A DNA stretch of 64,000 nucleotides from Selenomonas timonae (lineage in GTDB: Bacteria; Bacillota; Negativicutes; Selenomonadales; Selenomonadaceae), in contig NZ_CP060204.1 in assembly GCF_014250475.1 (NCBI RefSeq), forward strand, positions 1,873,001 through 1,937,000, given 5' to 3'. A program made the position numbers and the translations under genes. The notes beneath the pieces are model-generated. The model had not been told where the DNA came from, did no database searches, and saw only the letters and a list, made by a program, of their open reading frames with translations. Positions 5,678 to 8,546 of this stretch are shown here, in pieces (position 1 is the first letter of the stretch; each line of letters opens with the position of its first letter).

Positions 5678-5977
5678 TTGCTGCGAAACTCTCTAACCAG
5701 TAAACAGATTCGTAAGCTGCGCTCGCTCGGCATGACGGAGGACGCTGTCGTCATGATCGGGAAAGATGGAGTGACACCTACAGTCGTTGCCTCCGCCCGC
5801 GAGGCGATCAAGAAGCGTGAGCTCATCAAGGTGCGCGTCCTGCAAAATGCACCAGACGATCCGGAGGATGCCATCACCGTTCTTGCAGAGCGAGCCGATG
5901 CGAATCTCGTTCAGGTGATCGGGCGGAACGGACTGCTCTTCCGTCGGAATTTTGACAAGCCCAGGATTGAGCTATGA
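5678..5977 (+). CDS. yhbY: YhbY family RNA-binding protein (CRM domain)
   Basis: Small CRM-domain protein associated with pre-50S ribosomal particles. The 99 residues show the family pattern LTSKQIRKLRSLGM near the start, the GKDGVTP segment, and a C-terminal VIGRNGLLFRRN loop containing the conserved G-x-x-G-like turn. The start is TTG at 5678, about eight bases after GGGGAGG. The stop overlaps proB by four bases, so obgE, yhbY and proB form one operon. Confidence 0.9.
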   Translation: MLRNSLTSKQIRKLRSLGMTEDAVVMIGKDGVTPTVVASAREAIKKRELIKVRVLQNAPDDPEDAITVLAERADANLVQVIGRNGLLFRRNFDKPRIEL

Positions 5978-7098
5978 GTACGCGCAATCAACTCCGCTCT
6001 GCAAAGCGCATCGTCGTCAAGGTAGGAACGAGCACGCTCACGCATCCATCGGGCGGCATGAATCTACATCGCATCGAGCATCTCGTGCGCGAACTCATCG
6101 ACGAAGCAAATCAAGGCAAGGATATCCTGCTCGTTTCCTCCGGTGCAATTGCAGCGGGGATGAATGCGCTTGGACTTGCCGAGCGTCCTGCGAGCGTCCC
6201 TGCGCGACAGGCACTTGCGGCAATCGGGCAAGGGGCACTCCTGCACATCTATGAGAAATTCTTTCACGAGTACGGGCGTACCATGGCACAGGTGCTCCTC
6301 ACGAAGGAGAATGCCGCACGTCATCATCAGTATATGAATTCACGCAACGCCCTCCTTGCGCTTCTCGGGATGAATGTCATTCCGGTCATCAACGAGAATG
6401 ACGCCGTAGCAGTCGATGAGATCAAGATTGGGGACAACGACAATCTGTCCGCCGTCGTTGCCGCACTCGTCGATGCCGATGTGCTGATTATCCTTTCTGA
6501 TATTGACGGCGTCTATACAGCGAACCCACGCACAGATCTATCTGCAAGGCTGATCTCGGAGATTCCGGAGATCACGCCCGAGATCGAGAGCATCGCAGGC
6601 GGGGCAGGCTCCGCACAGGGCACAGGAGGTATGCAGACGAAGATCGAGGCTGCAAAGATTGCCCAGAATGCCGGCGTGACGATGGTGATTACACGCGGTG
6701 ATGAGGACGGTATCGTTCGCAGTATCCTGCGCGGAGAAAAAGTCGGAACTCTCTTTCCGGCGCGTGAGGCACATCTCAGAACGCGCAAGAGCTGGCTCGC
6801 ATTCGGCCAGCGTCTAATGGGCGAAGTCTCCGTCGATGCGGGCTGTGTTTCCGCCATGCGGGGCGGTGCGAGCTTGCTTGCGGTCGGTGTGACCGACGTT
6901 TACGGTGAATTCTCAGAGGGAGACACCATACGCGTTCTCAGCCCCGATGGCCAGGAGATTGCACGTGGCATTGCGGCGTATGATGCCGCAGATATTGCGC
7001 GCCTGATGGGACATCAGACGGCAGATTTTCATGCGCTCGTCGCGGATGCAGCGCATGAGGAGATCATTCATCGAGATAATATGGTGCTGATGGTATAA
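5974..7098 (+). CDS. proB: Glutamate 5-kinase
   Basis: First enzyme of proline synthesis: phosphorylates glutamate to glutamyl-5-phosphate, normally feedback-inhibited by proline. The 374 residues comprise an amino-acid kinase domain (VVKVGTSTLTHPSGG near the start, NENDAVAVDEIKIGDND for the active site, GTGGMQTKIEAA) and a C-terminal PUA domain (about 285-374). Full length. Its TAA stop is part of the short duplication flanking the inserted element that now separates it from proA. Confidence 0.96.
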   Translation: MSTRNQLRSAKRIVVKVGTSTLTHPSGGMNLHRIEHLVRELIDEANQGKDILLVSSGAIAAGMNALGLAERPASVPARQALAAIGQGALLHIYEKFFHEYGRTMAQVLLTKENAARHHQYMNSRNALLALLGMNVIPVINENDAVAVDEIKIGDNDNLSAVVAALVDADVLIILSDIDGVYTANPRTDLSARLISEIPEITPEIESIAGGAGSAQGTGGMQTKIEAAKIAQNAGVTMVITRGDEDGIVRSILRGEKVGTLFPAREAHLRTRKSWLAFGQRLMGEVSVDAGCVSAMRGGASLLAVGVTDVYGEFSEGDTIRVLSPDGQEIARGIAAYDAADIARLMGHQTADFHALVADAAHEEIIHRDNMVLMV

Positions 7099-7099
7099 G

Positions 7100-7259
7100 G
7101 GAATCACTGATAAATTCAGTCTCGCCGACTTGGCGCATCTTTTTCGCCCTGCCATCGTCAACAAATCCTCCACAGAGCACCACTCTGGGTTCGGTTTGTT
7201 TCCTTGGCAGGACAAAAATCTGTTACCAATCCGGAGAACTTCATTTTATCAGTGATTCC
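7100..7259. mobile_element. MITE-like element inserted between proB and proA
   Basis: A 160-base non-coding element has perfect 15-base terminal inverted repeats: GGAATCACTGATAAA at 7100-7114 and its complement at 7245-7259. It is flanked by the direct repeat TAAG (7096-7099 and 7260-7263), possibly five bases TAAGG. Removing it with one repeat copy would join the proB stop straight to the proA ribosome site (TAAGGAG then ATG), so insertion between the two genes is well supported. An internal dyad, CCTGCCA (7148-7154) with TGGCAGG (7205-7211), lets the RNA fold back. No transposase is encoded, so it would need one in trans. Confidence 0.85.
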
Positions 7260-7274
7260 TAAGGAGTGTGGACG

Positions 7275-8546
7275 ATGATGGAGCAGGAGATTCACGCACA
7301 GGCAGAGGCGGCAAAGGCGGCATCCTATCGGCTTGCAGTGCTACGGACGGACGAGCGGAATGCGGCGCTCTCTGCGATGGCAGATGCACTGACCGCGCAC
7401 ACGGATGAGATTCTCCGTGAAAATGCAGCGGATGTCGCGGAGGCGGCCAGCGCGGGAACACGCGCGTCCTATCTGGATCGTCTGCGCCTTGATGAGGAGC
7501 GCGTTGCTGCTATGGCGGAGGGGCTTCGCCTGACGGCAGCTCTGCCCGACCCGCTTGGCAGAGAGGACTACTCGGTTCGCCGCCCCAATGGTCTTGAGAT
7601 CAGGCGTATGTGTGTCCCGCTCGGCGTCATTGGAATGATCTACGAGGCGCGACCAAATGTGACCGCCGACGCCATCGGTCTCTGCCTAAAGTCGGGCAAT
7701 GCAGTCCTGCTGCGCGGCGGCTCTGACGCACTCCGCTCCAATCGTGTGATTGCAGATACCCTTTCACATGCCGCATATGGTGCAGGCATCCCACAGGGGG
7801 CAATTCAGCTGCTTGCAATGAAGGATCGCGCCGCTGTCGACGTTATGACGCATCTGACGGGACTGCTCGATGTTATCATTCCGCGCGGCGGCGCGGGGCT
7901 CATCCGCCGTATCGTCGAGAGTAGCACGGTTCCCGTCATAGAGACAGGCGCGGGCGTCTGTCATATCTACGTAGACCGTGCGGCTGATACCGCGATGGCA
8001 CTCCGCATTGTGGAGAATGCGAAGGTCGCACGTCCCTCCGTCTGCAATGCGGCGGAAACGCTGCTCGTCCACGAAAGCATTGCAGCGGAGTTCCTGCCGC
8101 AGATGGCGACGCTCCTCTGTGCAGACGGCGTGGAACTGCGCGGATGTGCTAATACCTGCCGCATCCTGCCGAACATCGCTGCGGCAACGGAGGAGGATTG
8201 GTCAACCGAGTACGGGGATCTCATCCTGTCCATCCGCATCGTGGAGGATCTCGATGCAGCTGTCACGCATATCAATCGCTATAATACGGGGCACTCCGAA
8301 ACGATTGTCACGAACGACATACGGGCGGCACATGACTTTCAGCAGAGAGTGGATGCCTCGACCGTCTATGTCAATGCCTCGACACGATTTACGGACGGCT
8401 TCGAGTTCGGCTTTGGCGCAGAAATCGGCATCAGTACGCAAAAGCTCCATGTACGCGGTCCGATGGGGCTGGATGCCCTGACCAGCACGAAGTATCTCGT
8501 CTATGGGGAGGGGCAGATCCGCGGGAGTGTCCCCGCGAAAAAATGA
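7275..8546 (+). CDS. proA: Glutamate-5-semialdehyde dehydrogenase (gamma-glutamyl phosphate reductase)
   Basis: Second enzyme of proline synthesis: NADPH reduction of glutamyl-5-phosphate. The aldehyde-dehydrogenase fold is full length (about 423 residues) with the catalytic Cys in ARPSVCNAAET, the cofactor region LKSGNAVLLRGGSDA, and the C-terminal GFGAEIGISTQKLHVRGPMG signature. The start is taken as ATG 7275, eight bases after AAGGAG (7261-7266). GTG 7266 would overlap that ribosome site. The ribosome site is supplied by the right-hand target duplication of the upstream element. Confidence 0.96.
   Translation: MMEQEIHAQAEAAKAASYRLAVLRTDERNAALSAMADALTAHTDEILRENAADVAEAASAGTRASYLDRLRLDEERVAAMAEGLRLTAALPDPLGREDYSVRRPNGLEIRRMCVPLGVIGMIYEARPNVTADAIGLCLKSGNAVLLRGGSDALRSNRVIADTLSHAAYGAGIPQGAIQLLAMKDRAAVDVMTHLTGLLDVIIPRGGAGLIRRIVESSTVPVIETGAGVCHIYVDRAADTAMALRIVENAKVARPSVCNAAETLLVHESIAAEFLPQMATLLCADGVELRGCANTCRILPNIAAATEEDWSTEYGDLILSIRIVEDLDAAVTHINRYNTGHSETIVTNDIRAAHDFQQRVDASTVYVNASTRFTDGFEFGFGAEIGISTQKLHVRGPMGLDALTSTKYLVYGEGQIRGSVPAKK

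Follow-up and report, generated by a model that had tools for sequence, protein, structure and literature searches.

An element between proB and proA

The spacer between proB and proA in Selenomonas timonae raises the question of how an element of 160 bp could come to lie between two genes and leave both usable, and of what kind of element it is. In bacteria, a MITE is usually regarded as the passive remnant of a single insertion sequence. We analyzed the junction in its window, the whole stretch of 64,000 nucleotides, and followed the element through its own genome, the genus and more distant genomes. The original prediction had described an insertion between the proB stop and the proA ribosome site with perfect 15-base ends and a duplicated TAAG or TAAGG, and the sequence bears this out. 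The element occupies 7100–7259 and is bounded by GGAATCACTGATAAA ... TTTATCAGTGATTCC, its ends are exact 15-base reverse complements, and TAAG flanks it on both sides, at 7096–7099 on the left and at 7260–7263 on the right, where GAG follows. With the proB ORF ending at 7098, the TAA stop falls within the left TAAG; the right TAAG opens a TAAGGAG that contains the proA ribosome site, likely to be AGGAG at 7262–7266. The element as a whole encloses no ORF of 60 aa or more. The features of the junction are as follows.

5974–7098, plus strand: proB, a 374-aa ORF with the stop TAA at 7096–7098, named from the original prediction and from orthologous junctions
7096–7099: left copy of the TAAG target duplication, from the sequence and the empty site in relatives
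7100–7259: IS5-type MITE of 160 bp, predicted to form a single long imperfect hairpin, from the sequence, folding and family copies
7100–7114, plus strand: left terminal inverted repeat, 15 bp, from the sequence
7137–7236, minus strand: conserved structured core, from the match of model R1 at G000:C1:1880137-1880236 (minus strand; the window starts at 1873001)
7243–7272, minus strand: weak promoter-like site, TCCACA, 18 nt and TAAAAT preceded by TG, with the −10 in the right end and the −35 in host DNA
7245–7259, minus strand: right terminal inverted repeat, 15 bp, from the sequence
7260–7263: right copy of the TAAG target duplication, from the sequence and the empty site in relatives
7262–7266, plus strand: probable proA ribosome site AGGAG, partly within the right TAAG, from the sequence; retained in several relatives
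7275–8546, plus strand: proA, whose start is probably the ATG at 7275 or 7278; in the ORF list the frame opens with GTG at 7266

The 3' end of proB was used to locate the same junction in relatives, and the sample comprised 14 genomes of the genus, the own genome (G000) and 13 others (G001–G013). The element was absent from the junction in all 13 others. In nine of them, counted by eye, TAAGGAG is unbroken at the end of proB (L111–L116, L118, L120 and L121), which agrees with the claim that a formerly continuous TAAGGAG had been split; in the remaining four the bases after the stop differ, and the element is likewise absent. The insertion is private to the own genome within this sample of 14, and the closest copy of the element elsewhere in the genus, among the matches listed, is 91% identical (G005). 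The position of the insert, its TAAG duplication and its empty site can be read directly from these sequences. Because the duplicated target overlaps the stop codon and the ribosome site, each gene keeps what it needs, one TAAG copy holding the proB stop and the other the proA ribosome site, as had been proposed. Taken by itself, the proB-proA event is a neat but ordinary MITE insertion.

The element together with its two TAAG copies (168 nt) folds at −66.7 kcal/mol on the plus strand (z −8.9) and at −76.4 kcal/mol on the minus strand (z −8.3). None of 200 shuffles folded as well on either strand, in line with the idea that the insert could add structure between the two genes. The accompanying suggestion of promoter activity is reduced to one weak pattern match (0.3 expected in shuffles), which lies on the antisense strand with its −10 in the right end. 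Two weak terminator-like sites were also found inside the element, where 0.4 were expected. The insertion would have turned the tight stop-to-start spacing of the relatives into a long spacer that contains a hairpin of very high stability, and this hairpin may uncouple translation of proA from that of proB. The effect on proBA is nevertheless likely to be mild, since both reading frames and the proA ribosome site survive, as the original prediction had held.

A family with four-base target duplications

A search for the 15-base ends elsewhere in the genome, which the original prediction had proposed, found many further copies. The first look at the own genome gave at least 40 matches to the element (40 of the 69 candidates were scored), and R1, a covariance model of the core built from 30 copies, found 41 core copies there plus one weak match on the wrong strand. 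Both standard ends are present in 33 of these 41 cores, the left end only in one, and neither in seven. Among the seven, two (755551 and 647802) have other, related palindromic ends, two (567363 and 497189) are bounded by unlike palindromes, and three (704614, 1085794 and 1307969) have no clear ends. Within the genus, R1 gave at least 67 matches in each of six genomes, two in G013 and none in G002. The exact core pattern was carried, among the matches listed, by Selenomonas flueggei, S. infelix, S. felix, S. massiliensis and Centipeda periodontii, and further by S. ruminantium MAGs and a Schwartzia MAG. The many genome copies and the empty sites in relatives rule out a single-copy or fixed spacer, and the hairpin touches many operons because copy numbers are high.

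Target duplications were examined in 182 deduplicated full-length family members, all with GGAAGC-type ends. Exact flanking repeats of 4 bp were found in 100 of them, whereas 1000 shuffles of the flanks averaged 15.2 and never exceeded 28. Repeats of 3 bp stood at the chance level (10 against 10.8 in shuffles), and repeats of 5 bp were found in four members (0.8 in shuffles). With 100 members matching at 4 bp and four at 5 bp, TAAG is a better reading of the duplication at proB-proA than TAAGG. In the own genome, 18 of the 33 two-ended copies have exact 4-bp flanks. The commonest 4-bp repeats of the family are TTAA, TATA, TTAG, CTAA and TTTA. The target preference of IS5 is YTAR; TTAA, TTAG, CTAA and CTAG fit this preference, but the TAAG of proB-proA does not.

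Some cores and ends of the own genome stand in unusual surroundings. For the cores in L029 (1524–1624, G000:755551) and L054 (1501–1601, G000:647802), the likeness of the flanking DNA continues past the element ends, as though a larger unit had been duplicated. The core in L058 (1501–1601, G000:567363) is enclosed by a 14-bp palindrome (GGCGTCCCTCATGG/CCATGAGGGACGCC) with TTTT after it and looks as if it had been placed within a terminator stem. In L062 (G000:C1:474955-474974, minus strand), a left end stands alone, directly against the 3' end of what looks like a gene for a small heavy-metal-binding protein; judged by eye, the end appears to supply the TGA stop of this gene.

The same ends also bound much shorter elements in the own genome, of 55–58 bp at five places and of 35–36 bp at two. 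Among four internally alike 55–58-bp copies, three have TTCTG instead of TTCAG, and this common change suggests that the 55–58-bp form itself spread. Four further forms are 27 bp long (lengths by eye).

27-bp palindromes, each of two merged ends: L066, L067, L071 and L074, at G000:205090, 404384, 811126 and 1517012

The 27-bp form looks like the result of a deletion between the TCAG copies of the two arms. These palindromes may be scars that a collapsing palindrome leaves behind, or else remnants of a mobile element that rank among the smallest in bacteria.

A probable IS5-family partner

A full insertion sequence with identical ends, also proposed as something to look for, was found in the own genome and in relatives. 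The own copy, at G000:1731276, is 1235 bp long; the part of its transposase that has no stops gives matches to PF05598 and PF01609 and a score of 242.8 bits against the IS5 model NF033581 (cut-off 140). Uninterrupted transposase frames of 343–350 aa are present in G002, G005, G006 and G007, in IS copies with the same ends. At E ≤ 1e-40, no intact partner was found in the own genome, where one copy is stop-bounded, one has an internal stop and one is partial, and such a transposase was absent from eight of the 14 genus genomes. Four genomes without it (G001, G004, G009 and G010) are rich in core matches, with 63 to at least 67; since copies are abundant there and the transposase was not found, the partner in these genomes would be a different or more distant one, or would have been lost. 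Identical 4-bp flanks are present in one of the five two-ended IS copies that were inspected, and the flanks of the IS copies are nearly all TTAA, TTAG or CTAA. G002 (L152) has an IS5 transposase in an unbroken frame and a short form of 59 bp, but no R1 core match; this genome appears to have the IS and to lack the full MITE.

We rejected the idea that the element arose from the resident IS by simple internal deletion, as the two have only their ends in common. The term MITE is supported for the 160-bp element by the empty sites, the many copies, the 4-bp repeats and the ends that match those of an IS5-family IS. Because these ends are shared, we infer that an IS5-family transposase would move the MITE in trans.

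The core changes in the manner of a folded RNA

Pairing within the core was analyzed in alignment A3, in which 47 diverse cores were fitted to R1 after five wrong-strand palindrome matches had been excluded by a stricter E limit. Standard pairs made up 95.3% of 1327 cells, and both sides had changed in 27 of the 29 pairs; in controls with the partner slid by 1–3 columns, 37.0–47.5% of cells paired. G-U cells numbered 130 and A-C cells 10, about 13:1 in this model-fitted alignment. A DNA palindrome without strand-specific pressure would be expected to show G-U and A-C equally.

As R1 itself favours G-U, the comparison was repeated without the model. Folding and strand-neutral arm pairing were applied to 30 own, 46 diverse and 20 Anammoxibacter rows, and these 96 rows represent 94 distinct elements, with L006 and L029 each in two of the three sets. 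The diverse set leaves out L099 and L100, which are cut by contig ends, and the short loci L138 and L139; its boundaries are arbitrary for copies without recognisable ends. The same strand was the better folded in all 96 rows, with an average gain of 27.8 to 32.3 kcal/mol; at proB-proA this strand is antisense to proBA. Strand-neutral pairing of the arms gave G-U:A-C ratios of 196:78 for the own copies, 291:108 for the diverse set and 181:32 for the Anammoxibacter copies. Row by row, G-U was in excess in 89, A-C in one, and six were ties; these rows are not independent, because the copies share ancestry. In the pair columns of the own copies, there were 190 G-U and 98 A-C cells, 26 columns with any G-U and 13 with any A-C, and five against four columns in which the one or the other was the majority. 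The strand bias in the own and Negativicutes cores is about 2.5:1 without the model; it is genuine, though less marked than in the fitted alignment.

Transcription from host genes is thought unlikely as the cause of this bias, since the orientation of the insertions is even. Relative to neighbouring ORFs (n = 164), elements lay in tandem in 49 and 43 cases, between convergent ORFs in 40, between divergent ORFs in 26 and inside an ORF in six; the count covers GGAAGC-type ends, and the ORFs were picked by length and are not annotated genes. Compensatory changes and strand-specific wobble pairs, the marks of a conserved structured RNA, were both seen in the core, although among related rows. A known RNA family was rejected as its identity: Rfam 15 gave no match at the gathering threshold over the element or its core in the window, nine own loci and 16 loci of other genomes.

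The core with other ends and in another phylum

The core of about 100 nt is not confined to the ends seen at proB-proA. R1 found it in 23 of 60 relatives and, across the class Negativicutes, in 54 of 300 genomes. Among the ends that enclose it in other genera are GGCGTGTTGATTAA (L095), GGAACCGCTGATTAA (L096) and GGCGTGTTGAAAAA (L102), and CTAG or CTAA often flanks these elements on both sides. The ends are partly related, several sharing an inner TGATTAA-like stretch. At least one Candidatus Anammoxibacter MAG (L252) is among the 120 loci listed for the exact core pattern; Ca. Anammoxibacter belongs to the phylum Planctomycetota, and Centipeda to the Negativicutes of the Bacillota. R1 matched this MAG 62 times at E ≤ 1, and in a search centred on it, 11 of 78 genomes (the MAG included) gave matches at E ≤ 1e-4. 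The best 20 of the 62 copies have at least five end variants, in which the outer bases differ and a AATAACTTG-like stretch is often shared. Exact 3-bp flanks of TAA or TTA occur in seven of these 20, and none of the seven extends to 4 bp. Since the ends of different hosts share inner stretches, exchange of ends and slow divergence both fit.

The core gave no match in plasmid and phage collections, nor did a looser core pattern in a scan of viral contigs. Two exact core matches (L301 and L302) lie on one 114.6-kb contig of a viral collection (IMGVR_UViG_649989997_000001).

Cores in ribosomal-protein operons

At two places in ribosomal-protein operons, R1 found cores that have no mobile ends.

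L077, 1495–1596: core without mobile ends between rplB and rpsS
L080, 1570–1668: core without mobile ends between the L10 leader and rplJ

The rplA-rplJ core was found in seven of the 14 genus genomes, with a shortened hairpin in three and none of that kind in four, and the rplB-rpsS core in six, with a short G+C-rich hairpin in five and none in three (hairpins judged by eye). At rplB-rpsS, both sides had changed in four of 41 pairs, and three of 246 cells were broken. The core is oriented oppositely at the two sites. The L10 leader was rejected as the identity of the core in L080; its match (41.7 bits against a gathering threshold of 44) lies just upstream and adjoins the core rather than covering it. 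We read the cores at both sites as old insertions that were kept, and partly trimmed, and they are natural cases in which to study domestication.

Explanations of the element and its core

The account that we consider the probable one combines a MITE insertion that duplicated TAAG with a core that acts as folded RNA or single strand, aids spread or tolerance, and has replaceable ends. A non-autonomous MITE would have entered where the proB stop and the proA ribosome site overlap, duplicating TAAG. Its structured core would be the part that also lies in elements with other, partly related IS5-like ends, in Negativicutes and in the planctomycete MAG. Compensatory changes and G-U pairs would preserve the long imperfect hairpin on one strand of this core, and the core presumably has, or had in the past, a function as a folded RNA or single strand. 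In that form it would help the element to spread or make its insertions tolerable, and the ends would diverge or be exchanged to suit the resident transposase. A wider claim, which we advance tentatively, is that of a mobile structured RNA: a hairpin core of about 100 nt, under selection on one strand as RNA or as single strand, present in Negativicutes and an anammox planctomycete, carried between IS5-like ends that vary with the host, and occasionally domesticated in ribosomal operons.

An ordinary DNA-level MITE, with the core as a passenger and the strand bias as an inherited accident of one ancestral copy, would account through its mobile copies for most observations within the genus. Shared G-U pairs are counted many times among related copies, and the majority columns of the own copies are nearly equal (G-U 5, A-C 4). 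We nevertheless think this explanation rather unlikely: the core occurs with other ends and in another phylum, changes on both sides affect 27 of 29 pairs, slid controls reach 37–48% against 95.3%, and the diverged Anammoxibacter copies show the same bias (G-U 181, A-C 32). Capture by IS5-type ends of a former host RNA or intercistronic hairpin of ribosomal-protein operons, followed by spread, is improbable. The cores without mobile ends at rplA-rplJ (7 of 14) and rplB-rpsS (6 of 14) speak for it, but the core points in opposite directions at the two sites and the other genomes of the genus have no such hairpins or short ones, so old insertions fit better than a single ancestral host element. 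We give least credence of all to a selected regulatory part that sets the ratio of ProB to ProA. The very stable hairpin, the promoter-like site and the two weak terminator-like sites would suit such a role, but the pattern matches are few and weak, and the element is at proB-proA in one of the 14 genomes, which gives no sign of long retention there.

If the favoured account of a mobile element with an RNA-like core is true, such elements would have a functional RNA of their own and the transposase partner would be a replaceable part; persistence of the core through changes of the ends, together with covariation on one strand, would imply this.

Comparison with known systems

The nearest relatives by their ends are IS5-family insertion sequences (NF033581 transpos_IS5_4; PF01609 and PF05598), which have ends of 15–18 bp in common with the element in copies of 1235–1247 bp. 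The IS carries a transposase; the element does not, and the common part is the ends only. REP and REPIN elements are palindromes of 20–40 bp with an end tag and a RAYT transposase; by inspection, their size and ends differ from those of the element. We found no description in the open-licence literature of a two-phylum core with changing IS5-like ends and strand-specific covariation, although an earlier description is possible, and among the matches listed for Selenomonas and MITE no title concerned genomic repeats.

MITEAba12 of Acinetobacter, an element of 113 bp with 9-bp duplications and ISAba12 as its partner, is likewise small and non-coding, with ends that match a resident IS and copies with target duplications; in the available part of that source, no core common to elements with different ends is described (PMC6382973). 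The transcripts of QMITE1 and QMITE2 of Coxiella form stable stem-loops, and these elements can provide a small RNA with a −10 box (PMC5896051). The element resembles them as a MITE with a stable stem-loop and a −10 box, both predicted here, but they differ in host and ends, and the accessible text reports no strand-specific covariation across phyla (PMC5896051). IStrons, so far as the consulted portion of the source describes them, carry a self-splicing group I intron, whereas the core here has no Rfam match; the likeness lies in a structured RNA that is carried by an insertion sequence (PMC4227781).
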